From positions 3,088,001 through 3,152,000 of the forward strand of contig NZ_CP117834.1 in NCBI RefSeq assembly GCF_028735875.1: a stretch of DNA of 64,000 bases, given 5' to 3'. Origin of the DNA: Shouchella hunanensis. Its GTDB lineage: Bacteria; Bacillota; Bacilli; Bacillales; Bacillaceae_D. This document shows, piece by piece, positions 8,898 through 24,715 of the stretch (position 1 is the first letter of the stretch; each line of letters begins with the position of its first letter). A program made the translations under genes and the position numbers. The notes beneath the pieces are model-generated. The model did no database searches. It saw only the letters and a list, made by a program, of their open reading frames with translations, and had not been told where the DNA came from.

Positions 8898-8966
8898 GGA
8901 TAAAGGAGGGAGCATGTGGATTAATAGAAGCATTTAATCCAATATAATACATCTGATAAAAGTAAT

Positions 8967-8989
8967 ACCCCACACTTAGCGTGTGGGGT
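8967..8989 (-). terminator. Terminator of the minus-strand membrane protein gene
   Basis: ACCCCACAC and GTGTGGGGT form a perfect 9-bp stem with a 5-base loop. The loop holds the stop codon of the gene at 8976-9455, so the gene's last codons form one arm. Confidence 0.75.
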
Positions 8990-9455
8990 CAACATAACTT
9001 TCTAAATAACTTATAATTGAGATGTAAAGCATGCGATTACGTTCCTTGTGACTTTCCAAAAATAATATGATTAATGATATCAAAGCATAAAAAGCCGTAA
9101 CTATAAGAATGTGATTAAATAAAAAATCAAAAACCTGTAGATTATTATGATCTTCAATAGTCCCTTTATCTATAAGGCCTAATGATAAAGCAATTAAGAT
9201 AGCTAATATAGTTACTCCTATACCAAATAAAGATAACAATTCTGATACCCTACTTCTGTTTTTCTCAAGAAGTTGTTTGCAAATTGCAAGGGTCTCATGA
9301 TAATACTTTGGATTGCCAATCATAATATCTCTAACTAGCGAAGGGTTAGCGACAAGTTGATACTGTAGTTTTTTTAAAGCCTTTGCTTTTTTATCTGGAT
9401 TAGTTATATCTATAAATTTTTGTTTACTAATTTCAAAATAATTTTCTCTATTCAT
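8976..9455 (-). CDS. Unknown two-TM membrane protein (prophage moron)
   Basis: This 159-residue protein is encoded against the direction of the surrounding phage genes. Residues 1-70 are charged and helical (KKAKALKKLQYQLVANPS). Two hydrophobic segments lie near 76-94 (LFGIGVTILAILIALSLGL) and 111-132 (NHILIVTAFYALISLIILFL), and a short charged tail follows. RBS AGGAGGTTGAAATG fixes the start. It has its own terminator, and its position between tail and lysis modules is typical for lysogeny-expressed accessory genes. I do not recognise the family; superinfection exclusion or a small membrane effector are possibilities only. Confidence 0.75.
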   Translation of the reverse strand: MNRENYFEISKQKFIDITNPDKKAKALKKLQYQLVANPSLVRDIMIGNPKYYHETLAICKQLLEKNRSRVSELLSLFGIGVTILAILIALSLGLIDKGTIEDHNNLQVFDFLFNHILIVTAFYALISLIILFLESHKERNRMLYISIISYLESYVDPTR

Positions 9456-9491
9456 TTCAACCTCCTGTTTAAATGTATCGGCTTCTTTTTG

Positions 9492-9510
9492 AATTCAATT
9501 AATTTGAATT
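9492..9510. promoter_or_regulatory. AT-rich inverted repeat between divergent cargo genes
   Basis: AATTCAA and TTGAATT are perfect 7-bp arms around a 5-base centre, in the 112-bp gap between the divergent genes at 8976-9455 and 9568-10077. The position fits an operator or promoter, but no binding protein is known. Confidence 0.35.
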
Positions 9511-9567
9511 TGGAAGGATCACTCCTTTTTTTGTCGAAAAGTAGAAGTTGAAGAGGGTGATTAAATT

Positions 9568-10077
9568 ATGAATTCACATCAATGTGGTGTTGCTGCAGAA
9601 TCGTTCACAGCCACCATGTTTGCTTGGGCGGGTTATGATGTATCAGTCCAATACGGGGCAAACCAGCCAGAATACGATTTAGTAATTGTTAAGGGAGATA
9701 AGATGCTTAAGATATCCGTCAAAGGCAGTAACGTTGGTAGATGGGTGCTAACTGCATCACTAAAAAAAGATGAGACAATTTCTTATGCTGATGCAATAGA
9801 TACATGGAGGTCAAAACATAGTACAAAAACGGTATTTAGCCTTGTACAATTCAAAAATGCAGACATGAGCAATGCTGAAATGCCTAGGATATATCTTGCC
9901 ACTGTTGATGAGATTGCTAGAGAGTTAAACCTTATTAGAAATGGAACGGGTTATACTGCGCTATATGAGAACAATACTTACAAGTCCGGTACGTATAAGG
10001 GTTTGTGCGACAAAGTTCCTGACGAATGGATATTTTCTAAGGAGAGAGTTAATTATCTTATTGACTTATTTAACTAA
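9568..10077 (+). CDS. PD-(D/E)XK-like nuclease-fold protein
   Basis: This 169-residue protein begins GVAAESFTATMFAWAGYDVS and continues EYDLVIVKGDKMLKISVKGS. Glu11, Asp37 and the S-V-K triplet (residues 50-52) match the order E ... D ... (E/S)xK of the PD-(D/E)XK fold as seen in small group-I-intron-endonuclease-like and Holliday-resolvase-like families. The third acidic position is Ser, a known variation that can mean altered or lost activity. It has a good RBS (GAGGGTGA) and a terminator downstream. It is divergent from the two-TM protein gene. DNA cleavage is inferred, not shown; the catalytic assignment is by eye. Confidence 0.6.
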   Translation: MNSHQCGVAAESFTATMFAWAGYDVSVQYGANQPEYDLVIVKGDKMLKISVKGSNVGRWVLTASLKKDETISYADAIDTWRSKHSTKTVFSLVQFKNADMSNAEMPRIYLATVDEIARELNLIRNGTGYTALYENNTYKSGTYKGLCDKVPDEWIFSKERVNYLIDLFN

Positions 10078-10087
10078 AATGAGGTTT

Positions 10088-10115
10088 AAGCACACCTTTT
10101 TCGGGGTGCTTTTTC
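10088..10115 (+). terminator. Terminator after the nuclease-like gene
   Basis: AAGCACACC pairs with GGGGTGCTT across a short T-rich loop, followed by TTTTT. Confidence 0.7.
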
Positions 10116-10139
10116 TCATGAAACATAAGGAGGTGAGTC

Positions 10140-10580
10140 ATGAGGAATGATTTAAAAAACCTAGACGCTTTAATCCTGTACTTTGCGCTAACCTTAACAG
10201 CTAGGGGCATCTGGTTAGTAATCGTATCAAATGAACGCTTTCTCGCATCAGAAACATATCGCTTAATGAATGGTCTAATCCCTCAGTGGGGTTGGGCCAT
10301 TTTAAGTTTAGCAGGAGCCTTAATTTTGTTTCTGGCTATGACGATTAAATGGCACCGCTATATCTGGCTAGTGGTTGGAGGATTGTTAGCATCATTTATT
10401 TATTTGCTACTAGCCTTAGCCACGTGGGATGCGTCTAGCGTATCAATACTGACGTTTATACATGTTATAAGCGCGATTTTTTGTTTATCTATTGCATGGA
10501 TGGGAGGAGACGACTGGTGGAGAATGAAAAAATCAGCGCGGAGATTAGAGAATTTGTCCGAAAAGAGGATTCGAAAATAA
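10140..10580 (+). CDS. Four-TM phage membrane protein
   Basis: This 146-residue hydrophobic protein has helices near residues 9-29, 47-65, 76-96 and 102-119, and a basic tail (WWRMKKSARRLENLSEKRIRK). RBS AAGGAGGTGAG precedes ATG 10140. It is first in the lysis block and its 3' end overlaps the XhlA-like gene by 64 bases in another frame. Membrane proteins of this type often precede the holin cassette; no specific function is recognised. Confidence 0.7.
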   Translation: MRNDLKNLDALILYFALTLTARGIWLVIVSNERFLASETYRLMNGLIPQWGWAILSLAGALILFLAMTIKWHRYIWLVVGGLLASFIYLLLALATWDASSVSILTFIHVISAIFCLSIAWMGGDDWWRMKKSARRLENLSEKRIRK

Positions 10581-10924
10581 ACAAACGCCTTGATGATTTC
10601 AACACCATGTTTATCCGGCAATCCCATGAGAACCAAATAGCAATGCTTGAGGTATCAAATGCTCTAGGGGGGCTTACAAAAGCCATTGACGGTATGGTGG
10701 AACAGACAGGCAAGAGAGAGAAATATGTGGACGGAAAGCTAGAAGAACAGGATATCGCTTTGAAGGAGCACGAAAAAGCAGTTGCCGACCTACAGGACAC
10801 TCGCAAAGATCGGCATGAACGTAATCGAAACATGTACAAATTAATATTGTCGTTGCTCGGTAACACAGCCTTCATAGGCTTTTTATTTTGGCTTTTAAGC
10901 AAAGGTAGCTGGTCGCCGTTTTAA
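10517..10924 (+). CDS. XhlA-like haemolysin/holin-accessory protein
   Basis: The best start is GTG 10517, 7 bases behind GGGAGGAG; upstream in-frame codons lack an RBS. The ~135-residue product has a long charged coiled-coil (residues ~15-105) followed by a single hydrophobic segment (LILSLLGNTAFIGFLFWLL). This is the build of XhlA, which acts with a holin in PBSX-type lysis cassettes. It precedes an SPP1-type holin and an amidase, supporting the call. Confidence 0.7.
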   Translation: MENEKISAEIREFVRKEDSKINKRLDDFNTMFIRQSHENQIAMLEVSNALGGLTKAIDGMVEQTGKREKYVDGKLEEQDIALKEHEKAVADLQDTRKDRHERNRNMYKLILSLLGNTAFIGFLFWLLSKGSWSPF

Positions 10925-10955
10925 CCCTCGTTGTGAGACTCAACGGGGGATTTTT
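10925..10955 (+). terminator. Hairpin between XhlA-like and holin genes
   Basis: CCCTCGTTG and CAACGGGGG form a 9-bp stem with a 7-base loop followed by ATTTTT. It lies within the lysis cassette, so it may tune rather than stop transcription. Confidence 0.7.
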
Positions 10956-10973
10956 AATGAGGAGATGATTTGA

Positions 10974-11207
10974 ATGGATAAAGGAACGGTAGTACGGACG
11001 ATAGCAATGATCATTGTATGGATCAACGTATTTTTAACACAACAAGGTTTAATGCCTATCCCTGTGCTCGATGAAGGTATGATAGCCGCTGGTTTGGCTC
11101 TGGTGGTGTCAATTTGGACTTGGTTTAAGAATAACTACATCACATTAAAAGGCAGAAAACAAAAGCAAGAGTTAGTTAAAGCTGGGTTAGCGAAGGGAGA
11201 TAAATAA
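10974..11207 (+). CDS. Holin, SPP1 family
   Basis: This 77-residue protein has the SPP1 holin layout: MDKGTVVRTIAMIIVWINVFL as first TM segment, a polar turn (MPIPVLDEG), a second TM segment (MIAAGLALVVSIWTWF) and a basic tail (NNYITLKGRKQKQ). Holins time lysis by opening the membrane to the endolysin. It is placed two bases before the amidase gene. RBS GAGGAGATGA and start ATG 10974 are clear. Confidence 0.9.
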   Translation: MDKGTVVRTIAMIIVWINVFLTQQGLMPIPVLDEGMIAAGLALVVSIWTWFKNNYITLKGRKQKQELVKAGLAKGDK

Positions 11208-11209
11208 TT

Positions 11210-12304
11210 ATGCTTCTTAATATCGTACAGGACTTTATACCGGCTAGTAACCGCAACCGACCGCAATACACTTTGGTGCCGGTTTATATTACAATTCACG
11301 AAACGGCAAACACTAGCACAGGGGCGAACGCTGCTATGCACGCTCGGTATGTGAAGAATCCAACGACAGCGACAAGCTGGCACTTCACTGTAGACGATAG
11401 AGACACTGTATACCAACACCTACCACTGACAGAAAACGGGTGGCACGCTGGTGATGGCGGTAGTGGCACAGGGAATCGTCAGTCAATCGGTATCGAGATT
11501 TGCGTTAACCGTGACGGTAATCTTGACAAAGCAACGCAAAACGCTATTACCCTTACTAAATCATTGATGGAACAGTTTAAGATCCCTGTAAACAATGTAG
11601 TGCCACATAAACGTTGGAGTGGGAAGAATTGTCCCACTAACCTATTATCAAAGTTTGACTGGTTCAAAAGTCAGTTGACTAATAAGCAAGACAAGGTAGA
11701 GGTAACTAAGCCTGCTCCAACTCCTTCTAAGGGCGCAAATATGACGACAGGTAGCATCGTGACATACCTTAACAGCATTGGCGTAGACTCGTCATATACT
11801 AACCGCGCTCGTCTTGCTGGTCAACATGGCATCAGCAACTACACAGGCACAGCGGCGCATAATACACAGCTATTAGGAGTTTTACGTGACCAAGGGGTAA
11901 AAGCACCAGCAACACCACCTAAGCCGAAGCCGAAACCTGTAGCAAAAGGCAATATGACAACAGGTAGTATTGTCACTTATCTAAACAGCATCGGTGTCGA
12001 TAGCTCGTATGGAAACCGTGAACGATTAGCTAAACAACATGGTATTAACGGATATTCTGGAACCGCTAATCAAAATACCCGCTTGCTTAATATCCTTCGT
12101 AATGGTGGATCAACGGCAGCACCTTCAAAAAAATCAACCAAACCTGCTGTAAGAGCAGGAGAGGGTATTGTCAGTTATATGAACCGTGCAGGTATGGACT
12201 CGAGCATGGCAAATCGAAAAAGACTTGCTCAACAGCATGGTATTAGCAACTATAGAGGCACAGCAGCGCAAAACAGCCGTTTACTGACATTAATTAGTCG
12301 ATAA
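11210..12304 (+). CDS. Endolysin: N-acetylmuramoyl-L-alanine amidase with three C-terminal repeats
   Basis: This is a 364-residue protein. Residues 1-~155 are an Amidase_2 domain: YITIHETANTSTGANAAMH carries a zinc-binding His, WHFTVDD supplies another conserved His, and HKRWSGKNCP is the typical C-terminal motif (His, Cys). A proline-rich linker is followed by three ~48-residue repeats at roughly 176-226, 247-295 and 317-364, with the shared pattern TGSIVTYLNSIGVDSSY, NRxRLAxQHGI, Y-x-GTAxQNTxLL. These are probably cell-wall-binding modules. The enzyme cuts the amide bond between muramic acid and the stem peptide during lysis. RBS AGGGAG precedes ATG 11210. Confidence 0.92.
   Translation: MLLNIVQDFIPASNRNRPQYTLVPVYITIHETANTSTGANAAMHARYVKNPTTATSWHFTVDDRDTVYQHLPLTENGWHAGDGGSGTGNRQSIGIEICVNRDGNLDKATQNAITLTKSLMEQFKIPVNNVVPHKRWSGKNCPTNLLSKFDWFKSQLTNKQDKVEVTKPAPTPSKGANMTTGSIVTYLNSIGVDSSYTNRARLAGQHGISNYTGTAAHNTQLLGVLRDQGVKAPATPPKPKPKPVAKGNMTTGSIVTYLNSIGVDSSYGNRERLAKQHGINGYSGTANQNTRLLNILRNGGSTAAPSKKSTKPAVRAGEGIVSYMNRAGMDSSMANRKRLAQQHGISNYRGTAAQNSRLLTLISR
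11741..12301 (+). repeat. Three tandem ~48-aa wall-binding-type repeats in the endolysin
   Basis: Copies start near 11741, 11953 and 12161. The first two are most alike (ATGACxACAGGTAG); the third has diverged at its beginning (GEGIVSYMNRAGMDSSM). Linkers between copies are rich in Pro, Lys and Thr. Confidence 0.85.
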
Positions 12305-12366
12305 GTTGCTTTATTAATTTAAAGATTCATAAAATCTAGTAAGAAGAGCCTTTTTTCTACAATGAA

Positions 12367-12392
12367 AAGCGCCCCATCAGGGGTGTTTTTTT
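12367..12392 (+). terminator. Terminator after the endolysin gene
   Basis: AGCGCCCC and GGGGTGTT pair around ATCA and are followed by a T run. It ends the late operon. Confidence 0.75.
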
Positions 12393-12442
12393 AATTGACG
12401 TAAAATACGATTTGTTTTTGTTTATTTATTAACAAAAAACTG

Positions 12443-12472
12443 TTGACTTAGTTCACAATTATAATGTATATT
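12443..12472 (+). promoter_or_regulatory. Sigma-A-type promoter of the immunity genes
   Basis: TTGACT (12443-12448) and TATATT (12467-12472) are separated by 18 bases, about 57 bp upstream of the repressor start. A TATAAT at 12460 has no matching -35 at the usual spacing. Confidence 0.55.
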
Positions 12473-12528
12473 GAAATTACAGTCGGAATGAGGGAATTTA
12501 ATATTTGAATAGGAAGGAGGAACTTCCC

Positions 12529-12888
12529 ATGTTAAGCGCTTTTGGGAAATTTGTGAGGAAGCTGAGAATTGACAACGGGGAACTATTGAAAGAAATGGCA
12601 GATAAACTTGGTGTTACTTCATCATATTTATCAGCTGTAGAAAACAATAAACGAAATGTTCCTCAAGGTTGGTCTGAAATTATTATCAAAAACTATGCTC
12701 TGAATGAATTTGAGGCAAAGCAATTAGAAAAAGCAATTGAAGAGTCAATAATAATTAATAAAATCGATTTAAATCAATTTGGCAAAGAAGATAAAAACAT
12801 TGTTAAAGCTTTAGCTAGAGAATTAAAGAGTTTTGATGAAGCGGATAGAAAAAAATTAATTCAACTTCTTAATAAGGAAAGGGGGTAA
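12529..12888 (+). CDS. XRE-family phage repressor
   Basis: A TTG-initiated frame opens at 12505, but ATG 12529 follows GGAAGGAGG by 8 bases and is preferred, giving 119 residues. Residues 1-65 form an XRE helix-turn-helix (KLRIDNGELLKEMADKLGVTSSYLSAVENNKR). The C-terminal part is charged and helical. Directly downstream is an ImmA-type metalloprotease, so the pair resembles ImmR/ImmA of ICEBs1 and phi105-like phages, where the protease inactivates the repressor on induction. Confidence 0.85.
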   Translation: MLSAFGKFVRKLRIDNGELLKEMADKLGVTSSYLSAVENNKRNVPQGWSEIIIKNYALNEFEAKQLEKAIEESIIINKIDLNQFGKEDKNIVKALARELKSFDEADRKKLIQLLNKERG

Positions 12889-12895
12889 TCAATGA

Positions 12896-13402
12896 ATGTA
12901 CACTGCTCAACCAATATCAAGAAAAGAAATTCAAACATATGTTGGAGAAATGCGCGAGGCTTTAAATTTAGAGAATAAAGAGTATTTCCCGATATTGGAT
13001 TTTTTAGAATTGATTATCCCACAATTATTTAAAGATTTTGATTATGAGATATTAGAAGATAGTGAAATGCCTCGTGAATATGGGGTTACTCTAATAGAGG
13101 ATGGAAAAATTTTTTATAGAGAGAGCGTATATGTGAATGCATTAAAAGGCGTTGGCAGAGATCGTTTTACGATAGCTCATGAATTGGGACATTACTTTCT
13201 TCATAGAGATGGCAAAGTGTCATTGGCAAGAAGTGAAAGGAAAGTAAAAGCTTATGAAGATCCGGAATGGCAAGCGAATGAGTTTGCATCAGAACTTTTG
13301 GCTCCATTAAGTTTAATAAAGGGGTTAAACGCAGACGAAATAAGCGAAAGATTCGGTGTATCTAAAGAAATGGCAAAAATTCAACTTAGCAAAATAAAAT
13401 AA
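12896..13402 (+). CDS. ImmA/IrrE-family metalloprotease (anti-repressor)
   Basis: This 168-residue protein has the zinc-protease motif HELGH in RFTIAHELGHYFLHRDG and a downstream conserved acidic region (NEFASELLAPLSL), as in the M78 family. It starts 7 bases after the repressor stop, indicating co-expression. In related elements ImmA cleaves the cognate XRE repressor after DNA damage or other signals to lift lysogeny. That role here is inferred from pairing and motif. Confidence 0.87.
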   Translation: MYTAQPISRKEIQTYVGEMREALNLENKEYFPILDFLELIIPQLFKDFDYEILEDSEMPREYGVTLIEDGKIFYRESVYVNALKGVGRDRFTIAHELGHYFLHRDGKVSLARSERKVKAYEDPEWQANEFASELLAPLSLIKGLNADEISERFGVSKEMAKIQLSKIK

Positions 13403-13443
13403 CAATTTAGGGGGTGATGCAGTGGGGGTTATTAAAAATAAAT

Positions 13444-13469
13444 AAGGTCAGTGCTGGAACACTAACCTT
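13444..13469 (+). other. Imperfect hairpin in the gap after immA
   Basis: AAGGTCAGTG and CACTAACCTT pair with one mismatch around a 6-base loop. It lacks a downstream T run. Just upstream, GTG 13422 behind AGGGGGTGA opens a 7-codon frame (VGVIKNK) that is too short to call a gene. The rest of 13403-13624 shows nothing further that I can support. Confidence 0.35.
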
Positions 13470-13624
13470 ACAATAAAAATCTTAAGAAAAGAAGGTATAC
13501 AATGGTTCACCACAAATCACTGTATAGAACTATACTCTTAAATTTTATTATACTCTATAATATTACCACATTTATGAGTGGAAATCCTTCTTTCTTAAAA
13601 AAAATAAGAAAAGAGGAAACCAAA

Positions 13625-13915
13625 ATGACTTTTGAACTAAAAAGAGTTTTAAGCTTACTGCCAGTGAGTATGGACAAGCCTATTAAGTGCAAGGAGATAT
13701 CGAAATTAACTGGGTACTCCGAATCTCAAGTGAGGTTGATTATTCATACACTCGTTGAGAAGCATCAAATGAAAATAGGTGCTAGTAATGAGCGCTCGAG
13801 ACAAGGATATTATATCATTTCAAATGAAGATGAGATGAGTAAAGCAGTTCATAATTTAGAATCAAGAATCAAGGCGATGACTAAGCGCTTGAATGTTTTA
13901 AAGCAGAGTAGTTGA
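13625..13915 (+). CDS. Small winged-helix-like DNA-binding protein
   Basis: The frame is open from 13502, but the 41 upstream codons look non-coding, and ATG 13625 follows AGAGGAAAC, giving 96 residues. Residues 5-70 read as a winged-helix/MarR-type unit (PIKCKEISKLTGYSESQVRLIIHTLVEKHQMKIG). The tail is a short coiled-coil (VHNLESRIKAMTKRLNVLK). It is probably a prophage regulator; no named family is recognised. A terminator follows immediately. Confidence 0.6.
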   Translation: MTFELKRVLSLLPVSMDKPIKCKEISKLTGYSESQVRLIIHTLVEKHQMKIGASNERSRQGYYIISNEDEMSKAVHNLESRIKAMTKRLNVLKQSS

Positions 13916-13926
13916 TTCTTATTTAG

Positions 13927-13968
13927 AATACCCTTATCAGTAAAGTAAGGGTATTTTATTTTTAAAAA
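13927..13968 (+). terminator. Terminator after the winged-helix gene
   Basis: AATACCCTTA and TAAGGGTATT form a perfect 10-bp stem followed by TTATTTTT. Confidence 0.85.
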
Positions 13969-13988
13969 AGATCTATGGAGGGTTATTT

Positions 13989-15029
13989 ATTCGACATGTA
14001 TTTTTAGATACAAATGTTTTTGTAGGGAAGAATTTTGGTTTTAAATGGGAGACCCTTGATAGTTTACAAACATACTCTTTGAAAGGGTTTGTTCAAATAT
14101 ATATTACTGACATAGTTTATCATGAAGTTAAGAATAGAATTAATAATAATATAATAGAAGCAAAAAGTGCATTAAAAGCTTTTAAGAAGAAAGCAAAAAT
14201 ACTTAATAATATTCCTGCGGCTCATAGATTAATAAAAGAGTTAGATAAAGAAACAAATGAAGCTAGTGGCGAAAATATGTTGGAATTATTTGATAAGTAT
14301 ATTAAAGAAGCAAAAATTGAAATCATCTCAACTGACAAAGTCTCAGTTGAGGAAGTTTTTAAGTTATATTTTGAAAGGCAGGCGCCGTTCGGCAGTGGAA
14401 AGAAAAAAAGTGAATTTCCTGATGCTTTCAGTTTAGTAGGTTTAAATAATTATATATTAAATAAGGGATTAACTATGCATGTAATTAGTTCAGATAGAGA
14501 TTACCAGAATTTCTGTGCAGAAAAATCATACTATATCATGGTGGAAAGTTTAGATACTTTAATAAAAGAAATATCAGAGGAAGAATATGAAGAAGCATTG
14601 ACTGCACTTTTGGATTATACTCATGACAATCATGAGGATATAATACTTGAGAAGGTACAGGATTATTTAGCTGATGAAACCTATTTTATAGAAGATGATG
14701 GAGATGTTAGTGAAATTATAATTAACTCTTTAGAAATAATCGATAAAGATACTGCTTATACTGTTTTAGAAGTGACTGAAACCGAAATAATTGCTGAAGT
14801 AAGCTTAACAATTAAGATCGATTTAACCGGAAAAATATCAATAATTGATCATGATAGTTCATTTTGGGATTCAGAGGAGAAAGAATACTTGTTTAAGGAG
14901 TATATGGCTTCCAATATATCAAGTGAAGCGGAAATTAAAGTTTCATTGAGTTTAGAGGTTAATTATCATACAGATGAAGCGGTGTATAATGTACTAACTA
15001 TTAATGAAGGAAATGGTATTTGGATATAA
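13989..15029 (+). CDS. PIN-domain protein with apparent ATT start
   Basis: The first standard in-frame start is TTG 14079, but the frame is open upstream and encodes HVFLDTNVFVGKNFGF, the strand-1 motif of PIN nucleases with the first catalytic Asp. No ATG/GTG/TTG exists there; ATT 13989 lies 6 bases after GGAGGG (13977-13982) and is the likely start, giving 346 residues. Further PIN acids are in SEFPDAFSLVGL and VISSDRDYQNF. Residues ~190-346 form an acidic beta-rich domain I do not recognise. The build resembles stand-alone PIN proteins of the DUF4935 type. RNA cleavage, and a role in toxicity or phage defence, are inferred. The DNA is very AT-rich compared with the tail genes. Confidence 0.72.
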   Translation: MRHVFLDTNVFVGKNFGFKWETLDSLQTYSLKGFVQIYITDIVYHEVKNRINNNIIEAKSALKAFKKKAKILNNIPAAHRLIKELDKETNEASGENMLELFDKYIKEAKIEIISTDKVSVEEVFKLYFERQAPFGSGKKKSEFPDAFSLVGLNNYILNKGLTMHVISSDRDYQNFCAEKSYYIMVESLDTLIKEISEEEYEEALTALLDYTHDNHEDIILEKVQDYLADETYFIEDDGDVSEIIINSLEIIDKDTAYTVLEVTETEIIAEVSLTIKIDLTGKISIIDHDSSFWDSEEKEYLFKEYMASNISSEAEIKVSLSLEVNYHTDEAVYNVLTINEGNGIWI

Positions 15030-15086
15030 TCCAATCCATCAGTTAACAGCGGATACTAAATATTTATATCAAAAACCCCGCTTCTC

Positions 15087-15185
15087 GGCGAGGTCTCAAG
15101 AGGGCTTAATAAAGCCGTTGGGTTATTACACGATCCTGCATTGGGGGTTCCTATTGAGAAGTTTTTAGTAAGAGTGGTTGGCTGA
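15087..15185 (+). pseudogene. C-terminal remnant of an unidentified gene
   Basis: A 32-codon stretch (GEVSRGLNKAVGLLHDPALG onward, ending in TGA 15183-15185) has protein-like composition but no start or RBS. It looks like the tail end of a lost gene. The flanking 15030-15086 and 15186-15244 hold only short hairpins, one of them GGCTG/CAGCC just after the stop. Origin is unknown. Confidence 0.35.
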
Positions 15186-15244
15186 AGAGAGCCCAGCCTT
15201 TAACTTAATATTATCTATATAGAGATGGAGAAGGTGAATCTGAA

Positions 15245-15601
15245 GTGGATGATAAATTTACATTAAAAGAAGTGTTACTTGATTTGGAAGAAAAATTGTT
15301 AAAACCAGAAATTAGGGCATCAAAAGATGAGGTTACTCAATTACTTTCAGAAGATTTTTTTGAGTTCGGAAGTTCTGGTAAGGTTTTGTATAAAAATGAG
15401 AGCATTGATGAAGTGAGTCTTAGTGCGGTAAGTATGAAATTGAGTGATTTTGAAATTCATCCATTGTCTGAACAAATAGTTTTAACAACTTACAGAATAT
15501 ATAACGAAGTAAGTAAACAACATTCCTTACGTAGTTCGATATGGAGATTAACTGATGGAAAGTGGAAAATGCAATTTCATCAAGGTACACCAACAGCTTA
15601 A
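15245..15601 (+). CDS. NTF2-like (DUF4440/SnoaL-type) small protein
   Basis: The 118-residue product starts at GTG 15245 behind GGAGAAGGTG. It matches the DUF4440-like NTF2 fold: an N-terminal helix (LLDLEEKLLKPEIRASKDEV), LLSEDFFEFGSSGKV, and C-terminal strands (IVLTTYRIY, SSIWRLTDGKWKMQFHQGT). Such proteins are usually single-domain binding or hydrolytic units of unknown substrate. Here it lies between two gene remnants in prophage cargo, which suggests a passenger gene. Confidence 0.7.
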   Translation: MDDKFTLKEVLLDLEEKLLKPEIRASKDEVTQLLSEDFFEFGSSGKVLYKNESIDEVSLSAVSMKLSDFEIHPLSEQIVLTTYRIYNEVSKQHSLRSSIWRLTDGKWKMQFHQGTPTA

Positions 15602-15642
15602 TCACATTAATTCTTAATGCACTAACCGGGGCTTTAGTGTAA

Positions 15643-16029
15643 GTAGCTAAATTAAAAAATCGGTTCCTAAACGTTGTAAATCCGCATTTTCCTGACGCTA
15701 CCATCGTACAAAAGAAAAGAGACAGTCGTTATGAAATTGCTAATCGATCACATAACTGGTTAAAGTCATCAACTGGCAAACAGGATTTTTTTATTGCAGG
15801 TATAAGAAAAAAGGAATTTGGCTGGCTTTTGGAAGCTATGCTGGTGTAGTTGAATTTGTACCCCGCTAACGACAGGAAAGTATTGTATAGTCTCGTCGAT
15901 CAGCTTAAAACAGGATCAAAAGACTACATCTACATGGACCCGGTAATCAAGGTAGAAGTGAAGTACCGCAATTTAACCAGCAAAGGCTTATTACGCATAC
16001 CTGTTTTTGTTAAATTCATTTTGGAATAA
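15643..16029 (+). pseudogene. Decayed ATP-dependent DNA ligase (C-terminal half)
   Basis: Three frames together read as the C-terminal half of a phage-type ATP-dependent DNA ligase. The first (15643-15849) has YEIANRSHNWLK and FFIAGIRKKEFGWLL. A second frame has GSYAGVVEFVP. The third (~15863-16029) has PANDRKVLYSLVDQL and MDPVIKVEVKYRNLTSKGLL before the stop. At least two frameshifts and internal stops separate them, and the N-terminal adenylation motif KxDG is missing. The pattern is that of the LigB/YoqV-type ligases of SPbeta-like phages. The gene cannot be functional as it stands. Confidence 0.75.
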
Positions 16030-16083
16030 ACAAGAGCAGGTTTTTTGCTGTGTTCGTTGAATTTATGGGTTAGGAGGTTTTAT

Positions 16084-16434
16084 ATGAAGAGAGAATTTGA
16101 AGCATTTGCTTATCTATGGTCAATCCATGATGCCATTATTGAACGGTATCCTAACGCCAGTAGTCACTACGGTAATTACAATCAAGTTGTTAACTACGCA
16201 CTCTACAACTATGGTTTCGCATATACTGAGCAACAAAAAAGAGACCTACATCAATCGGTCTCCATACGCAACGACATTTGTCATTTCCGCCACATAAGCT
16301 ATAACGATTTAGAATTGCTCAATCGCTTATCCTCATCGCTTATACCCGCTAAAATTTCTTCCCATAACAGGTCTTCATCCATATCATCTAAGCGTCGCTC
16401 AAAGGCTTCCTCAAAAGGACATTTACTCACCTAG
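16084..16434 (+). CDS. Small HEPN-like protein with Rx4H motif
   Basis: ATG 16084 follows TAGGAGG by 8 bases; the earlier open frame from 16045 is not needed. The 116-residue product is helical and contains SVSIRNDICHFR, an R-N-x3-H motif (Rx4H, polar residue after Arg) diagnostic of HEPN ribonucleases, preceded by a helix pair (AFAYLWSIHDAIIERYP, NQVVNYALYNYGF). The last ~30 residues are Ser/Arg/Lys-rich. HEPN proteins are common in toxin-antitoxin and abortive-infection systems. No obvious antitoxin is next to it; the gene on the other strand overlaps its 3' end by 12 bases. Activity is inferred from the motif. Confidence 0.6.
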   Translation: MKREFEAFAYLWSIHDAIIERYPNASSHYGNYNQVVNYALYNYGFAYTEQQKRDLHQSVSIRNDICHFRHISYNDLELLNRLSSSLIPAKISSHNRSSSISSKRRSKASSKGHLLT

Positions 16435-16791
16435 TTTGCCCATGTAAAACAACAAGTTTCTTTTTACATCTTTTTTTAGAGTTGACCTTGTTCCGCCAAC
16501 AAATCCAGTCCGACCGTTACACCAAAAACGCCAGTTCAAAAATAAGCTGTCTACTTGGCTTGGTTGATCTTCAACCTTAATATTTTCTTCACTAAAATAA
16601 TGTCTCTTGGCAAATTGGTCATCTGCAATTAGTTTAAGTATCTGCTGGTGTAAATCAGGTGAGCGGTCATATATGTTGTGTAGGTACTCTCTCGTCAAGC
16701 GATTAATAATGTATGATCGAATACTTACCTCTGGTCGTTCATCGACTGTAAGTGAATCCCAACCGTCAAAAGAAGTTTCAGGTAGTTCCAT
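16423..16791 (-). CDS. Unknown cargo protein
   Basis: Two ATG codons exist (16800 and 16791); the second lies 8 bases after AAAGGA and fits better, giving 122 residues. The sequence starts MELPETSFDGWDSLTVDERP and ends with a conserved-looking block rich in aromatic and basic residues (LFLNWRFWCNGRTGFVGGTR, then KKDVKRNLLFYMGKLG). I do not recognise the family. It is convergent with, and overlaps, the HEPN-like gene and sits in the lysogenic cargo zone. Confidence 0.55.
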   Translation of the reverse strand: MELPETSFDGWDSLTVDERPEVSIRSYIINRLTREYLHNIYDRSPDLHQQILKLIADDQFAKRHYFSEENIKVEDQPSQVDSLFLNWRFWCNGRTGFVGGTRSTLKKDVKRNLLFYMGKLGE

Positions 16792-16850
16792 TTCAATCAT
16801 CCTTTCTTAGTTGCTTTATTATATGAGAATAAATGTTCGTATGCAACAAG

Positions 16851-16876
16851 AAAAAAGAACCAATTAAGGTTCTTTT
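16851..16876. terminator. Terminator downstream of the lipoprotein gene
   Basis: AAGAACC and GGTTCTT form a stem with T runs on both strands. On the minus strand it ends the lipoprotein gene at 16875-17507. Confidence 0.75.
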
Positions 16877-17507
16877 ATGGATTAACTGTGATTGTGAAAT
16901 CATCATCTACAGATCTATTATCGATAGAAGTTGATTTGAAGTGGAAGTTTAACTCTCCGATATCATCAATGCTTTCGTCGCCAAGATTATAGGATACAAA
17001 CTGTTCCTGCCTAACTTGACCTATGTGAGAAGATTCTCCGCCGTTTAGCATCATCTCAGCGTCTATTTGATTACCGGTGTCTGTTGTTAACGTTGCGGAG
17101 AATGAATGAAACGACGCTTCATCGTCAGAAGTATTTTCTGTTTTAATAACAGTTGTTACGATATTTATCGTTTCTTTATTTTCGTCATCAAAAGAAAATG
17201 TTCCCGCCTTAACTGATTCGAAATTGCCCTCAATTGGACCAGAGGTAAAATGCTCATTCACATTAATTACATCAGAGAAGTTAAATTCACCGTATCCACC
17301 GTCAACTACTCTTTCGCCCGCTTCTGCATCAAAAACGCTATCGGCTTCATCATTTGATTCATTAGTCTCATTAGAAGTATCTGTATTTGCTGAGGTCGTT
17401 TCTTCGCTTCCGGTCTCGTCCTGATCACTTGACGAAGTATTATCAGAGCCACATGCTGTTAATACAACAAGACCAATAGCTAGTAAAAAAGATAATTTTT
17501 TATTCAT
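16875..17507 (-). CDS. Prophage-encoded lipoprotein, DUF4352-like
   Basis: This 210-residue protein has a lipoprotein signal (MNKKLSFLLAIGLVVLTACG, lipobox LTAC with Cys19), then ~45 residues of Ser/Thr/Asp/Glu linker, then a beta-rich domain (GEFNFSDVINVNEHF, NIVTTVIKTENTSDDEASFHSF, EQFVSYNLGDES) that resembles the immunoglobulin-like DUF4352 fold of Bacillus lipoproteins. It should be anchored on the outer face of the membrane. Genes of this type are common lysogenic-conversion passengers. Function is unknown. Confidence 0.75.
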   Translation of the reverse strand: MNKKLSFLLAIGLVVLTACGSDNTSSSDQDETGSEETTSANTDTSNETNESNDEADSVFDAEAGERVVDGGYGEFNFSDVINVNEHFTSGPIEGNFESVKAGTFSFDDENKETINIVTTVIKTENTSDDEASFHSFSATLTTDTGNQIDAEMMLNGGESSHIGQVRQEQFVSYNLGDESIDDIGELNFHFKSTSIDNRSVDDDFTITVNP

Positions 17508-17665
17508 ATGTATTTATCCTCCTAAAGTCACATTAATAAAAGCATACTATTATTTAACGTCTAAACACAATGAAAAGTTTCAAAAGAATGTAAAGAGCTC
17601 TAGTCTTGAGACATAAAAAAATATTCTACTTTAAATTCAATTTTTTGAAAGCGAGTTTAGTACTA

Positions 17666-17695
17666 TTAAGAACATATGTTCCGTGTTAATATAAT
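17666..17695 (+). promoter_or_regulatory. Promoter with LexA (SOS) box
   Basis: GAACATATGTTC (17670-17681) matches the Gram-positive LexA box core GAACN4GTTC with purine/pyrimidine preferences also met. It covers the region between a weak -35 (TTAAGA, 17666-17671) and a perfect -10 (TATAAT, 17690-17695), spacing 18. LexA bound there would block transcription of the small genes downstream until DNA damage. Confidence 0.65.
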
Positions 17696-17721
17696 TATTA
17701 AAGGGATGTCTACCCATTAAA

Positions 17722-17832
17722 ATGCCTTTAAAAGAGGAGATATCGCCCTACAGACATATAGATGGGAAAGTGAGTTTCTTCCTATATAAATGTATGTTTG
17801 CTTTATCATTGTTTAAAGGGGTGTCAGCATGA
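17722..17832 (+). CDS. Putative 36-aa SOS-controlled peptide
   Basis: The ATG 17722 frame runs 36 codons, with a hydrophobic/aromatic C-terminal half (GKVSFFLYKCMFALSLFKGV). Its stop overlaps the next start (ATGA at 17829-17832), suggesting coupling. The RBS is weak (AAAGGG, 16 bases upstream). It is the first frame after the LexA-box promoter. It may be a small membrane peptide or only a leader; evidence is limited. Confidence 0.35.
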   Translation: MPLKEEISPYRHIDGKVSFFLYKCMFALSLFKGVSA

Positions 17833-18029
17833 AGTTTGAGGTGATTGCATTTTGGTCGGATAAAGATAAAGAAGGTATGGTTTGCGTGAAGAAAAACGGC
17901 TCTATTATTGATTCGGAATTAACCCCAAAAATGAACGAGTCGGAATTTTTGGTATGGAGAAAGGTGAAATCGCTAGCTTTTCTACATAAATACAATTTAA
18001 TGGGAGTAAATCCCGTATTAGTTAAATAA
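17829..18029 (+). CDS. Small unknown protein downstream of the SOS-type promoter
   Basis: This 66-residue protein begins MKFEVIAFWSDKDKEGMVCV, behind AAAGGGGTG with 7 bases to ATG 17829. The mix of beta-type N-terminus and helical middle (MNESEFLVWRKVKSLAFLHK) looks like a genuine small protein. It precedes the recombinase gene by ~145 bases. I do not recognise the family. A role in prophage induction or excision would fit the location but is only inference. Confidence 0.6.
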   Translation: MKFEVIAFWSDKDKEGMVCVKKNGSIIDSELTPKMNESEFLVWRKVKSLAFLHKYNLMGVNPVLVK

Positions 18030-18047
18030 GTAATTCGGACAATCGTA

Positions 18048-18081
18048 ACTGTCATACGCTCAAATGAGGAGTGATGACAGT
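18048..18081 (+). promoter_or_regulatory. Inverted repeat around the RBS upstream of the recombinase
   Basis: ACTGTCAT (18048-18055) and ATGACAGT (18074-18081) are perfect 8-bp arms. The second arm covers a start codon (ATG 18074), and the 18-base loop holds the RBS GAGGAG, so folded RNA would hide the start. A possible sigma-E-like -10 (CATACATC, 18121-18128) lies just downstream but lacks a clear -35. Confidence 0.35.
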
Positions 18082-18277
18082 GCGAGTCAAGGTAGTTACT
18101 GGTAAGTATACGGACAAGAACATACATCTTTGCTATGATTACCTTATAAAGCGATATAAGGAGGAACTAGAGCGTGATAGCGATATACGTGAGGGTATCG
18201 ACGGAAGAGCAAGGGAAGAAAGGGTACAGTGTCCGCAATCAGATACAGATGTGCAAGGACAAAGCAGGAACGAATGA
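18071..18277 (+). CDS. Doubtful small frame overlapping the recombinase start
   Basis: The frame opens at GTG/ATG 18071-18074 behind GAGGAG and gives ~67 residues (MTVRVKVVTGKYTDKNIHLC at the start). Its last 104 bases lie inside the recombinase gene in another frame and have a low-quality composition. The first ~33 codons could be a real short protein or leader coupled to the recombinase. I include it because of its good RBS; it may well be spurious. Confidence 0.25.
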   Translation: MMTVRVKVVTGKYTDKNIHLCYDYLIKRYKEELERDSDIREGIDGRAREERVQCPQSDTDVQGQSRNE

Positions 18278-19673
18278 TGTAATTCAATACGTTGACGAGG
18301 GTTTTTCCGGTGAGTTTTTGGAAAGACCGGATTTAGAAAGGCTAAGAAAAGATGTTAGGGAAGGTCTCATAACGAAAGTCGTTTGTTATGACCCTGATCG
18401 ACTCTCTAGGAAATTAATGAATGCTTTAATTATAGATGATGAGTTTCGAAAAAAAGATGTAGAAATGATATATGTAAATGGTGAATTTGCCTCCACTCCA
18501 GAAGGGCAACTTTTTTATAGCTTAAGGGGAGCGATTTCAGAGTTTGAGAAAGCTAAAATAAATGAACGTATGACGAGCGGACGAAAGCGAAAGGCCATTG
18601 AAGGAAAAGTGATAAAGAATAGTCATGCTTATGGATACGATTATGATAAAGAGAACGGCATGTATGTCGTAAATGAAAAAGAGGCAAATATCATAAGGTT
18701 TATCTTTGACATGTTTACAAAACCAACTAAAGATATCCAAGGGATGAATGGCATAGCAAAGTTTCTCACGGCCAAAGAAATACCTACAAAAAAAGGTGTA
18801 GGTGTTTGGCATAGACAAGTGGTAAGGCAGATACTATTAAATGAAATGTACACTGGCACATACTATCAAAATAAGTTTAATACTGAAGGTATGCTTGCCA
18901 ACAAATATAAAGCTGATAACAAAATAAAAATGACCATTAGAGATCAATCTGAATGGATCGAAACAGAAATACCTCAAATAATCGATCAAGAACAATTTGA
19001 TTATGCTCAAGAGCTGCTTAAACAAGCCCGTAGACGGTGGTCAAAGAGTACCAGTGCAAGAATGTATCTCCTGAGTGGGATTGTAAGGTGTGCCGATTGT
19101 GGGAATACAATGACAGGCATATACAGAAACAACTGGGGTACGAAACTTAGGTATTATACAGATGTAAAAAATAGCTCAGGAGCAAAAAATGAAGGTTGTA
19201 AGCATCACGTAAGGGCAGATAAGTTAGAAACAACCATATGGGATAAGATAGAAGAACTTTTAAATAATCCTGAGAGGTTGGAAGATTACAAACCAGAAAG
19301 TGGCGACACGTTCTCTAAATTTGAAATTGACCAAATTGATGATTTAAAAGAGCAAATTGATAAAGCGAAAAGCGGAAGAAAGAAACTGCTGCAGTTGTTT
19401 GCGCTTGAAGATATGGATACAGAAGAAATTAGAGACTCTATTGTTGAGTTAAAAAGTAAAGAGGAACGGTTGAAGAATCAACTTGTTGAGCTTGAAGGTA
19501 AAGTGAATAATCAAAAGGAAATGTCCAGTTCGTTTTTAATGTTAGATGAGGTTAGGAAGAGATGGTTGAAAGAAGATACTATTTCTGAGGAAGATAAAAA
19601 AGAAATTTTGCGTATGTTAGTGAAGGAAATTATCTTATCGAAAGATGGGGAAGTTTCAATTCAACTTCTTTAA
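18174..19673 (+). CDS. spoIVCA: Large serine recombinase of the sigK element (SpoIVCA-type)
   Basis: This 499-residue protein starts at GTG 18174, 8 bases after AAGGAGGA. Residues 1-~145 are the resolvase catalytic domain: [12 protein letters not shown] carries the nucleophilic Ser9, and [13 protein letters not shown] and [18 protein letters not shown] are conserved. A recombinase domain follows ([35 protein letters not shown]), then a zinc-ribbon ([10 protein letters not shown] ... CKHH) and a C-terminal coiled coil (residues ~385-460). The gene lies inside the element and converges on truncated sigK, overlapping it by 4 bases. By analogy with SpoIVCA it should cut and join the element's ends to restore sigK in the mother cell. 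Confidence 0.92.
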
Positions 19674-20044
19674 AGTTCTTTATGTAATAGTAATGACATT
19701 AGAATCTCGTTCTCAATACATCGTGCTGCATAAGTGGCTAATTTTGTTCCTTTACCATCTGAATAGCTTTCAATGGCTTTAATTAAGCCAATCGTGCCAA
19801 TGGAGATTAAATCTTCTGCATCTTCACGTGTGTTTTCAAACTTTTTGACAATATGAGCGACGAGACGTAGGTTATGCTCAATTAATAAGTTTCTTGCTTC
19901 TTGGTCACCCTGAGCAGCAAGTTGTAAGTACTTTTTTTCATCCTCTTTGCTTAAAGGTTGTGGGAAAGCATTATTTTTGACATAGGAAACAAATACAATA
20001 ACTTCCCTCATTAAGTATGAAACGGCTGCAAGTAATCCTGACAT
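19670..20044 (-). CDS. sigK: Sigma-K precursor, N-terminal part, interrupted by prophage
   Basis: The 124-residue frame begins with the pro-sequence [20 protein letters not shown], then [12 protein letters not shown], the SpoIVFB processing region of pro-sigma-K. The core-binding region follows ([42 protein letters not shown]). Homology then stops and eight phage-encoded residues plus a stop end the frame. A full SigK is ~230-240 residues, so the DNA-binding regions are missing; they should lie left of the window. The RBS GGAGGAGGTGAA is strong. The gene should be inactive in vegetative cells and restored by excision. Confidence 0.93.
19691..19701. other. attL/attR: Probable attachment-site core at the sigK junction
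   Basis: TAATGACATTA is an 11-bp palindrome exactly where the sigK-like protein sequence ends (after ENEILM) and phage DNA begins. The Met codon of that motif is within it. Serine recombinases use short near-palindromic cores, and the B. subtilis skin core is in the same part of sigK. The exact crossover bases cannot be fixed without the other junction. Confidence 0.6.
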
Positions 20045-20211
20045 TTGTTCACCTCCTCCATATACCTATGCAGCCGTAAGCATGTTCGTGTCTGTACAAA
20101 AAAAATACACGATGGTTCTGTGTAAAGCTTATCATTGCGAAACCATTGCAAGTCTGATAGGTTAAAACAAATGGCTGTAGCAGCGAGTTCAGATAGAAAG
20201 TGGAGAAAAAG

Positions 20212-21024
20212 ATGACATTACTAGCGAATTATCATATTGCGTTAACGGCGTCTCGGAAAACAGATGAGATGGAAGAATTGATTAGGAAACAAGGTGGAAC
20301 AAGTAGCGTGCGTTCCATGCAAGGTACAGTGATTGAGGATGAAACAATTGTGAAAGCGATGATCCGTGATGGCTTGAATGCTAATGTGGACTGGTTTGTT
20401 TTTACTACTGGAATCGGTATTCAAACGTTTATGCGGCACGCTGAGGAAATGGGAGTAAAAAAAACGTTTGTAGACAAGTTGAATAAAGCTAGAATTGCAG
20501 TTCGAGGTTACAAAGCGATTGCCGCATTAAAGAAAGAAGGCGTTTCATACGAAGTTGCATCAGAAGATGGTACAACAAAGGATTTACTCGTTAAATTAAG
20601 CGCCTTTCCGTTTCAAAAAAAACATGTTGTCGTCCAACTTTATGGAATTCCATCGCCAGAAATGGAGCAATTTTTTTCAGTCAAACAAGCCGTATTAACG
20701 ACTTGGCTCCCATACCACCATCTTCCTCCTGAAGAGAGTGTAGCGGATCAATTATTAAGAGAATTAGTGATGGCTAAAAGTTATCAAGCGGTTTGTTTTA
20801 CATCTGCATTACAAGTAAAAGCCCTCTTTTCCTGCGCCGAGAATCGAGGTCTTACAGAAGAAGTCATCGCCAGTTTTGAAGATGATGTCATTGCGACTGC
20901 AGTCGGAAAGGTAACAGCAGAAGCGTTATATGAATCAGGAGTAACGAATGTAGTATATCCAGCTAAAGAAAGAATGGGTGCAATGATTATTCATTTAGGA
21001 AAATACATAGCTTCTACCAAGTAA
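20212..21024 (+). CDS. Uroporphyrinogen-III synthase (HEM4 family)
   Basis: A GTG at 20200 is in frame, but GGAG at 20202-20205 serves ATG 20212, giving 270 residues. The sequence shows the HEM4 two-lobe pattern: ALTASRKTDEMEELIRKQGG, DWFVFTTGIGIQTFM, IAVRGYKAIAALKKEG, QAVCFTSALQVKALF and IATAVGKVTAEALYESG. Uroporphyrinogen-III synthase closes and inverts ring D of hydroxymethylbilane in haem and sirohaem synthesis. The gene stands alone next to sigK rather than in a hem operon, so it may be a paralogue with a different role. Confidence 0.8.
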   Translation: MTLLANYHIALTASRKTDEMEELIRKQGGTSSVRSMQGTVIEDETIVKAMIRDGLNANVDWFVFTTGIGIQTFMRHAEEMGVKKTFVDKLNKARIAVRGYKAIAALKKEGVSYEVASEDGTTKDLLVKLSAFPFQKKHVVVQLYGIPSPEMEQFFSVKQAVLTTWLPYHHLPPEESVADQLLRELVMAKSYQAVCFTSALQVKALFSCAENRGLTEEVIASFEDDVIATAVGKVTAEALYESGVTNVVYPAKERMGAMIIHLGKYIASTK

Positions 21025-21056
21025 AAACCCGTTGCCTGTTAAGACAACGGGTTTTT
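21023..21056. terminator. Bidirectional terminator
   Basis: AAAACCCGTTG and CAACGGGTTTT form a perfect stem with T runs on both strands, between the convergent HEM4 and BCCT genes. Confidence 0.9.
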
Positions 21057-21059
21057 GCT

Positions 21060-22712
21060 TTATTCTTCTTTAGGCTTTTTAATACCCTTCTTTTTCTTCG
21101 TTTTTTCTGTTTTTTTCTGTTTTTGTTCTTCTTGCTTATGACGTTTTCTTTCTGCTCGTTCTGTCTTACTCTTAAATTGCCGAAGCTCTGCAATTTCTCG
21201 TAGCAAACGACGTTCTTTTACTTCTTTCTTCAACTGTTCATGTCGTAAGGCTTTAAAAAGAGAAATAACCATTAAAAGCATGATAATTGAAAACGGAAAT
21301 GCAACGACAATCATTGTATTTTGTAATCCTTGTAACCCACCACTATAGAGAAGTACAGCAGCAGTTGCTGACATTAGAACGCCCCATAAGATCTTGATTT
21401 TTGTAGGAGGATTTAATGACCCATTCGTTGATTGGCTACCTAACACATGTGTAGCCGAATCTGCAGATGTAATGAAGAAAACGGCGATTAAGAAAATGGT
21501 AATATACGATGTAATTGTACTAAATGGCATGGCTCCTAATACCCCAAATAAGGCCTCTTCATCAGCCAAATTGGAAATCGTTGTTAGACCTTGAGATTCA
21601 AAAGATATCGCTGTGCCCCCCAAGAAAGAAAACCAAACAAAGCCAAGAAGAGATGGTACAAGCAACACGCCAATAACAAACTCTCTTAGCGTTCTACCTC
21701 TTGAAACACGGGCGATGAACGTTCCGACATAAGGAGACCAAGCCATCCACCAAGCCCAGTAGAATAGCGTCCACGCATTAATCCATTCACGATGTTCAGA
21801 GCTATTCGGCGCAATGGTAAAGCTTAATTCAGGTAACGACTGAATGTATTGTCCGAGTGTGTTCGTAAAAAGGTTTAAAGAATATAAAGAGGCACCAAAA
21901 ATCATGAAAAATAATAACATAAGCATAACTAAAATCATATTCATGCGGCTTAAAACACGAATACCTTTGTCAATTCCTGTACTTGCAGAGATTAAAAATA
22001 AAATGGTGACAATAACAATAATCACAAGTTGTAGACCGAAGCTATTCGGTATATTCGTTAAAAAAGATATTCCACCATTCATTTGTGCAGCACCAAAACC
22101 GAGTGTAGTCGCTATACCTGATAGTGTCGCAACAATAGCAATAACATCGATTGTTTGACCCCAAAAGCCTCTTGGATTAATAAGTGGGGAAAGGGTGGCA
22201 CTGATTAAGCCTGGCATATCCTTGCGGAAATTAAAGTAAGCAAGGCAAATAGCGACAATGGCATAAATTGCCCATCCATGAAAACCCCAATGCAAAAAAA
22301 CGAATTTAAGCGACTCTAGGGCTGCTTGACCAGTCGCTTCATCTGCGGTAGGAGCATCAATGGCATAGTGAGCTATCGGTTCAGCGGCTCCAAAAAACAG
22401 TAAGCCAACCCCAAGACCAGCACTAAATAAAAAGGCGAACCACGTTAAGTAGCTGTACTCTGGACGATCTTCTTCTTTTCCGAGGCGTAACCTTCCAAAC
22501 GGGCTAACAATAAAAAATAGGCAAACCAACAAGAAAATGGTGACGACAATTAAGTAGTACCAGCCAAAGAAATTAGCTATAAATTGGCGTACAGTCGCAG
22601 TGATAGCTTCAAGCTGGCTAGGAAAGAGGATGCCAATGGCTACAAAAACAATTAAAATGCCTAGCGTCCAATAAAAAACGTTTGTCAGTGTACCGGCGGT
22701 CTTTTTTCTCAA
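21060..22712 (-). CDS. BCCT-family (betaine/carnitine/choline) transporter
   Basis: This 550-residue membrane protein has about 12 TM segments. BCCT signatures are present: the tryptophan-rich segment in TM8 (LFYWAWWMAWSPYVGTFIARV with the following SRGRT), the glycine-rich stretch GLGVGLLFFGAAEPIAHYA, and FFITSADSATHVLG. Such carriers import glycine betaine or related osmolytes with Na+ or H+. The last ~70 residues are very basic and charged (KKTEKTKKKKGIKKPKEE), resembling osmosensing tails of OpuD/BetP-type carriers. It fits a halo/alkali-tolerant lifestyle. The substrate is not determined by sequence. Confidence 0.9.
   Translation of the reverse strand: MRKKTAGTLTNVFYWTLGILIVFVAIGILFPSQLEAITATVRQFIANFFGWYYLIVVTIFLLVCLFFIVSPFGRLRLGKEEDRPEYSYLTWFAFLFSAGLGVGLLFFGAAEPIAHYAIDAPTADEATGQAALESLKFVFLHWGFHGWAIYAIVAICLAYFNFRKDMPGLISATLSPLINPRGFWGQTIDVIAIVATLSGIATTLGFGAAQMNGGISFLTNIPNSFGLQLVIIVIVTILFLISASTGIDKGIRVLSRMNMILVMLMLLFFMIFGASLYSLNLFTNTLGQYIQSLPELSFTIAPNSSEHREWINAWTLFYWAWWMAWSPYVGTFIARVSRGRTLREFVIGVLLVPSLLGFVWFSFLGGTAISFESQGLTTISNLADEEALFGVLGAMPFSTITSYITIFLIAVFFITSADSATHVLGSQSTNGSLNPPTKIKILWGVLMSATAAVLLYSGGLQGLQNTMIVVAFPFSIIMLLMVISLFKALRHEQLKKEVKERRLLREIAELRQFKSKTERAERKRHKQEEQKQKKTEKTKKKKGIKKPKEE

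Positions 22713-23056: not shown

Positions 23057-24715
<1,659 letters not shown>

Follow-up and report, generated by a model that had tools for sequence, protein, structure and literature searches.

A phage-sized, skin-type element splits sigK in Shouchella hunanensis

The sigK gene of Shouchella hunanensis is divided by a prophage, and the locus raises the question of whether the gene can be restored by a developmentally timed excision or is lost to the cell for as long as the prophage stays in place. We analysed a window of 64,000 nucleotides (bases 3088001-3152000) of the chromosome, a complete single contig of 4,064,600 bases (4.06 Mb) with 99.99% completeness, together with the adjoining sequence and related genomes. 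Positions refer to the window unless they are given as genome positions.

The two halves of sigK and their junctions

The original prediction held that a skin-like prophage interrupts sigK, and this was borne out. The 5' half lies on the minus strand at 19670-20044 and encodes 124 aa, running from the start of pro-SigK through host codons that end in CIENEILM and on into eight prophage-encoded codons (SLLLHKEL) before it terminates at 19670. The C-terminal half, expected at the other prophage end with the same core, was indeed found there with the SigK model, at genome positions 3055767-3056123 on the minus strand and 51.6 kb left of the N-terminal half. Both halves thus reside on the same strand with the element between them. 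The 12-bp core CATTAGAATCTC is present at both prophage/host junctions, at 19697-19708 and, as a second copy, at genome position 3056103 beside the C-terminal half; two copies were found in the 64-kb stretch searched. The element between the cores comprises 51,594 bp, and its removal in silico leaves a single open frame of 243 codons, or 236 aa when counted from the ATG; the product scores 363 bits with the SigK model (cut-off 298.65). A second intact sigK, which would have spoken against the split, was sought in the complete genome and no protein exceeded the SigK cut-off. The best near-full-length match was a sigma factor at 266 bits, which we take to be SigE. Same-strand halves, matching cores with an in-frame join, a recombinase at one end and no other sigK, all of them seen here, are what characterizes a skin-type element.

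The joined gene has counterparts among close relatives. In 10 of the 13 genomes of the genus, sigK is unbroken and reads ENEILMHLR across the site, which means that the empty site also occurs in nature. The remaining three are split at exactly this codon, two by a phage-sized and one by a small element, and their recombinases are 98.6-100% identical. Among close relatives the site is thus seen at different stages. In Shouchella oshimensis the left core carries one mismatch (CATGAG vs CATTAG), and a relative with unbroken sigK (G037) also reads ATTCTCATG at this position, so that the exchange most likely takes place within the minimal shared core AGAATCTC at 19701-19708. The 11-bp palindrome TAATGACATTA at 19691-19701, at which the 5' sigK frame had been thought to stop, does exist, but the frame runs past it to its end at 19670. 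We reject the palindrome as a junction signal, because 58 such palindromes occur in the 64-kb window and this one is uninformative by itself; it is the 12-bp core that marks the junction. Around attB and attP, no inverted repeats exceeded the 95% level of shuffles.

The recombinase, an overlapping reading frame and the motif upstream

The SpoIVCA-type recombinase that had been predicted to face sigK is encoded on the plus strand at 18174-19673, and its end overlaps the end of the minus-strand sigK frame. It is a large serine recombinase of the SpoIVCA/integrase type with an intact frame of 499 aa and with Resolvase, Recombinase and zinc-ribbon domains, it is the sole match to PF07508 in the whole genome, and it shares 98-99% identity with the recombinases of S. 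oshimensis DSM 18940 and S. miscanthi AK13, the latter species being classed under S. hunanensis by NCBI taxonomy. Directly upstream, a small plus-strand ORF with a GTG start (18080-18277, 65 aa, Skr1) shares 104 nt with the start of the recombinase gene but is read in another frame. According to PMC6957869, skr of Bacillus subtilis encodes a recombination directionality factor (RDF) of 64 aa that is required for excision, and the gene has an overlap of 101 nt with spoIVCA. The Shouchella ORF matches it in place and size and is a candidate RDF. Neither this ORF nor the second Skr-like ORF described below gave a family match in Pfam and NCBIfam at E<=1.

In order to see how widespread the arrangement is, we assembled 116 loci of recombinase relatives, 79 from genomes (taken from the best 80 of 297) and 37 from viral contigs, and the recombinase start could be placed in 115 of them. 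Upon two-fold cross-validation, a Skr1 profile built on the non-overlapping N-terminal part of the ORF recovered it in 53 of 55 training loci, and of 60 unseen loci 26 gave a match, the genome loci in both sets stemming from the best 80 of 297. A recognisable Skr1 was absent from the other 34 unseen loci, which include a large group of distant recombinases from metagenome-assembled genomes.

A candidate sigma-E promoter with a SpoIIID-like box precedes skr1 on the plus strand (18032-18060), with AATT at 18032-18035, GGACAA at 18037-18042 and CATACGCT at 18053-18060. GGACAA fits a SpoIIID box next to the sigma-E -10 motif CATACNNT. For the window alone, the score of a simple sigma-E pattern was not significant (p 0.275); the search with this pattern returned the same motif arrangement at the same place in many recombinase loci. 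We evaluated 76 upstream regions, hand-picked mostly where Skr1 was visible, of which 73 remained after removal of near-duplicates. ACAA-N9-13-CATA was found upstream of the recombinase in 44 of these 73 and was missing from 29, as compared with a mean of 1.8 and a maximum of 5 in shuffles, a contrast that is somewhat optimistic because the pattern was framed after a first look at overlapping loci. The reverse strand yielded 1 occurrence and windows 1 kb upstream none in 69, and 40 of the 44 motifs are located 120-147 nt before the recombinase start. A vegetative promoter inside skr1 (18111-18139), which would serve the integrase alone, was also considered and rejected, as there was one extended -10 match and the counts were at chance (4 found, mean 3.2). 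Neither an intrinsic terminator (window 17500-18300) nor a known RNA family (window 17000-22000) was detected.

In B. subtilis, spoIVCA needs both sigma-E and SpoIIID, as reported in PMC517825 and PMC5025042, and the same control may apply to the Shouchella element. The S. hunanensis genome contains a SpoIIID gene over its cut-off, and this gene, the Skr-like ORF and the conserved motif together point to an excision that would be timed by development. We consider it very probable that the prophage is a skin-type, phage-sized element that is removed by Int and Skr1 in the mother cell, restoring sigK. The large serine recombinase would have integrated the phage at the codons EILM, leaving same-strand 5' and 3' halves of the gene. 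In the mother cell, sigma-E with SpoIIID would most likely transcribe skr1 together with the recombinase gene, whereupon Int and the overlapping RDF would recombine attL with attR, release a circle and re-establish an unbroken pro-sigK. In the spore, the prophage would be retained.

The phage genes, a shared cassette and a second Skr-like frame

The window contains the right-hand 19.7 kb of the prophage (1-19696, plus strand), which continues left to genome position 3056103 with about 31.9 kb outside the window. Plus-strand genes in the window part encode a tail tape measure protein (5-2587, the gene starting left of the window), the distal tail protein Dit (2587-3444), a minor tail or collagen-like tail protein (4475-8452), a holin (10974-11207) and an endolysin of the amidase type (11210-12304). 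Lysis genes had been part of the original prediction and are present, along with structural genes. A PHROG scan covering 34 of the 78 predicted ORFs of the element gave matches to small and large terminase, portal, minor head, scaffold, major capsid and head-tail adaptor proteins, to major tail, tape measure, Dit, tail fibre-like, holin and endolysin proteins and to a DnaC-type helicase loader, SSB, Erf, an anti-repressor and repressor-like regulators. Each of the modules for packaging, head, tail, lysis and replication is represented, which by gene content gives the element the appearance of a complete phage, and its gene set suggests a siphophage type. At 12529-13402, near the lysis genes and away from the repressor at the far end, a gene for a second HTH regulator precedes one for an ImmA-type metalloprotease.

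We compared the element with those of the two other interrupted Shouchella genomes. Of its 51.6 kb, 8.9 kb could be aligned at the nucleotide level with the 57.3-kb element of S. oshimensis and 5.6 kb with the 20.5-kb one of S. miscanthi. The right part of a common integration cassette (17617-19708, plus strand) is 96-98% identical in all three and includes a 66-aa ORF upstream of skr1 (17829-18029, plus strand; 98-100% identical). The rightmost 2.08 kb, i.e. the 66-aa ORF, skr1 and the recombinase gene, are 97.9% identical to S. oshimensis, as against 88.7% (1.7 kb) and 90.0% (only 390 nt aligned) for the host flanks. The left 1.23 kb with genes for a repressor and an HTH protein and with skr2 is 92.9% identical to S. 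oshimensis, only little above host DNA. In the circular form, this left block adjoins the right block across attP, resulting in a 3.3-kb cassette. Relative to S. miscanthi AK13 the situation is reversed, the host flanks being 99.5-99.6% and the integration unit only 96.5% identical. From these values for units and flanks in both species, the elements most likely arrived separately.

Outside the cassette, at E<=1e-4, the S. oshimensis element contains no match to the portal, minor head, scaffold, capsid, head-tail adaptor, major tail, Dit, tail-fibre or endolysin proteins; the large terminase and tape measure proteins share 23-24% identity and the holins 57.5%. The S. oshimensis element does possess its own portal, capsid, terminase, tape measure, Dit and endolysin. 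Its portal, terminase and Dit belong to the same PHROGs as those of S. hunanensis and its capsid to a different one. The common PHROGs indicate that the head-tail modules are highly diverged and not wholly unrelated. In the 20.5-kb S. miscanthi AK13 element, no match was obtained to the packaging, head, tail and lysis genes of the S. hunanensis phage, and PHROGs revealed no packaging, capsid or lysis genes among the 10 of 23 ORFs of at least 80 aa that were scanned. What the PHROGs did recognize were a helicase loader, two transposases and two collagen-like GXT-repeat ORFs that match tail-fibre families (L039:4142-6565). The latter could also be spore-surface-type proteins and as such possible cargo of a sporulation-linked element. 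Another collagen-like GXT-repeat ORF, reminiscent of spore-surface proteins too, is located in host DNA close to sigK (23057-24715).

The second Skr-like ORF, Skr2, is free-standing, 38 aa long and situated at the far end of the element behind the repressor and HTH genes (genome 3056966-3057082). It shares 47-50% identity with Skr1 over 32 aa (E about 4e-8) and is recovered at E 2.3e-5 by a model built without it. The protein is identical in S. oshimensis and absent from the 20.5-kb S. miscanthi AK13 element, where only Skr1 is found. In principle, one integrase could thus be served by two RDFs: Skr1, tied to the integrase by the overlap, would be fired by the mother-cell programme of the host, and Skr2, behind the repressor in an early operon, by lytic induction. 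The 3.3-kb cassette skr1-int-attP-repressor-HTH-skr2 would move as a unit between phages with highly diverged head-tail genes, and a decayed phage would keep Skr1 alone because sporulation still needs it. We put this forward tentatively, as less likely than not. Should Skr2 prove to be an excision factor, one could understand how a single integrase serves both the spore programme of the host and the lytic cycle of the phage, and why small remnants keep only the sporulation switch. The Shouchella cassette is also a natural candidate example of the cassette exchange proposed by Suzuki et al. (PMC6957869).

Equally well, with chances that we regard as even, Skr2 may be another early-operon phage protein that shares a short motif with Skr1 and is no excision factor. 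This fits its length of only 38 aa and its weak PHROG matches, which are to families of unknown function. It also fits the rarity of second copies. We found no support for a second Skr as a general feature of phage-sized sigK elements: a second match at E<=0.01 was seen in only 3 of 39 genomes chosen from the 79 genome loci (G087, G094 and G097). One of these three represents a second recombinase copy, and the two matches of G094 correspond to the two Skr1-type ORFs of one locus (L104). Note that no Skr at all was found in 11 of these 39, several of which have Skr1 by the other profile, so that misses in this search weigh little. Far-end stretches of ten further elements gave best E values of 0.084 with the Skr1 plus Skr2 model and 0.014 with the Skr2-only model, and tblastn of Skr2 in the phage collection returned only chance-level matches. 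The similarity of Skr2 to Skr1, its recovery by the model built without it and its absence from the 20.5-kb element argue against an unrelated function, and so does the distribution of Skr matches: at E<=1e-9 they occur at just 8 places in 41 genomes of the family (next match 1.8e-4), namely five Skr1 beside this recombinase family, the two copies at the far ends and, in G033, one at 2.7 kb from an intact sigK. This tests specificity and not discovery, since the far-end copy had gone into the model together with Skr1 of the window, G028, G012 and others. Stand-alone Skr candidates in viral contigs reached E 1.5e-6 at best, or 3.9e-9 for L169 in a cross-validation fold, and the far end of the G028 element has a weaker one (E 0.001-0.004); some weak candidates entered later models, which renders their later scores circular. 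Of eight stand-alone copies, seven lack the promoter motif upstream, and the eighth has it at another distance. The lone Skr2-like ORF of G033 (L215/L203), about 2.7 kb from sigK in a genome with no recombinase match at E<=1e-30, is possibly the scar of a lost element; the gene order around sigK differs there from that in the window.

Alternatives, known systems and the spread of sigK interruptions

The locus could be explained differently if the prophage were an ordinary temperate phage with sigK as its attB, leaving the chromosome on lytic induction only, in which case lysogens could not finish sporulation. Its appearance as a complete phage suits this explanation, and so does the lower identity of the cassette than of the flanks within one species (96.5% vs 99.5%), indicating elements that are not vertically inherited and move. 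We nevertheless regard it as improbable, since in 44 of 73 loci the Skr1-int arrangement is accompanied by a sigma-E/SpoIIID-like motif at a conserved position. In addition, a sigK piece (>=50% identical) lies within 700 nt of the recombinase in 54 of the 79 genome loci (from the best 80 of 297), and it seems unlikely that so many spore formers would bear a Spo-minus burden. An insertion locked or decaying in a lineage that no longer sporulates is hardly credible, because the 20.5-kb S. miscanthi AK13 element, which has no packaging, capsid or lysis matches among its scanned ORFs and makes it seem that such elements do decay, retains even so Skr1, the recombinase and the att sites, and because S. 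hunanensis has an intact recombinase frame, both cores, both sigK halves, SpoIIID over its cut-off and a SigE-like gene.

As a skin-type element excised in the mother cell, the Shouchella prophage would have several counterparts. In B. subtilis skin, the recombinase lies beside the sigK 5' half and faces it. Insertion in sigK, a large serine recombinase and a small RDF ORF overlapping the recombinase start are also common to both (PMC6957869). Skin is a defective prophage, whereas in the Shouchella element the set of genes for packaging, head, tail and lysis is full; moreover, the second Skr-like ORF is a feature of the Shouchella element, and the comparison with skin covers the first Skr only. 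In a collection of 50,697 phage records, Alicyclobacillus phage MMB025 was the sole record with a recombinase match at E<=1e-50 (46.5% identity). This active phage is reported to integrate in sigK with a core TCTC (PMC13141910), which falls inside the AGAATCTC core of the Shouchella element. MMB025 is a 105-kb contractile-tailed phage, while the 51.6-kb Shouchella prophage is probably of the siphophage type. The element joins the skin/MMB025 kind, and this kind of arrangement is already known; what it adds is a case in which the prophage that splits sigK has well-defined ends and retains the look of an entire phage.

Skin-Cd of Clostridioides difficile likewise interrupts sigK and encodes a large serine recombinase (CD1231), and its RDF CD1234 restricts excision to the mother cell (PMC5025042). 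As described there, it differs in its site and orientation, which are unlike those of B. subtilis skin, with the recombinase beside the 3' half, in an RDF gene that is apart from the recombinase gene and in a SigK without a pro-sequence. SP-beta, an active phage with SprA/SprB, splits another mother-cell gene, spsM, and is excised both in sporulation and after stress. It manages with one RDF gene under stress and mother-cell promoters according to PMC6957869, whereas in Shouchella two Skr-like ORFs may divide the work. Our literature search retrieved nothing on sigK under the present genus name Shouchella, older genus names being outside its range. Among the matches listed in a search for a described two-RDF arrangement, RDF nearly always has other meanings, and one title concerns a Vibrio island; this is not proof of novelty.

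Within the family, sigK is split in 8 of 41 genomes and at three places: at the EILM site in G000, G030, G032, G028 and G012, around codons 61-74 in G018 and around codons 139-147 in G024 and G025. G003 gave no match to the SigK model in this set. Beside the G018 junction lies a recombinase of only about 30% identity (loci of G018, G024 and G025: L045, L220, L222, L218, L219). The different places and this distant recombinase make it seem that sigK has been hit independently several times in one family. Differing sigK sites and orientations are also on record for B. subtilis vs C. difficile (PMC5025042). Among the 79 genome loci from the best 80 of 297, the most common layout has the C-terminal half after the recombinase (33 loci); that of the window, with the recombinase facing the N-terminal half, was called in 4, and L090, scored as 'other', probably has it as well. 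Intact sigK genes with an extra 3' fragment downstream were encountered in G007 (L216) and G020 (L217), 16 kb or 1.6 kb away, as if an element had come with a sigK 3' end of its own and had not disrupted the gene. Contig C140 of G012 (L221) carries two sigK 3' halves that resemble each other and are separated by 8.5 kb, the 5' half being located on a different contig; perhaps these are tandem elements at one site.
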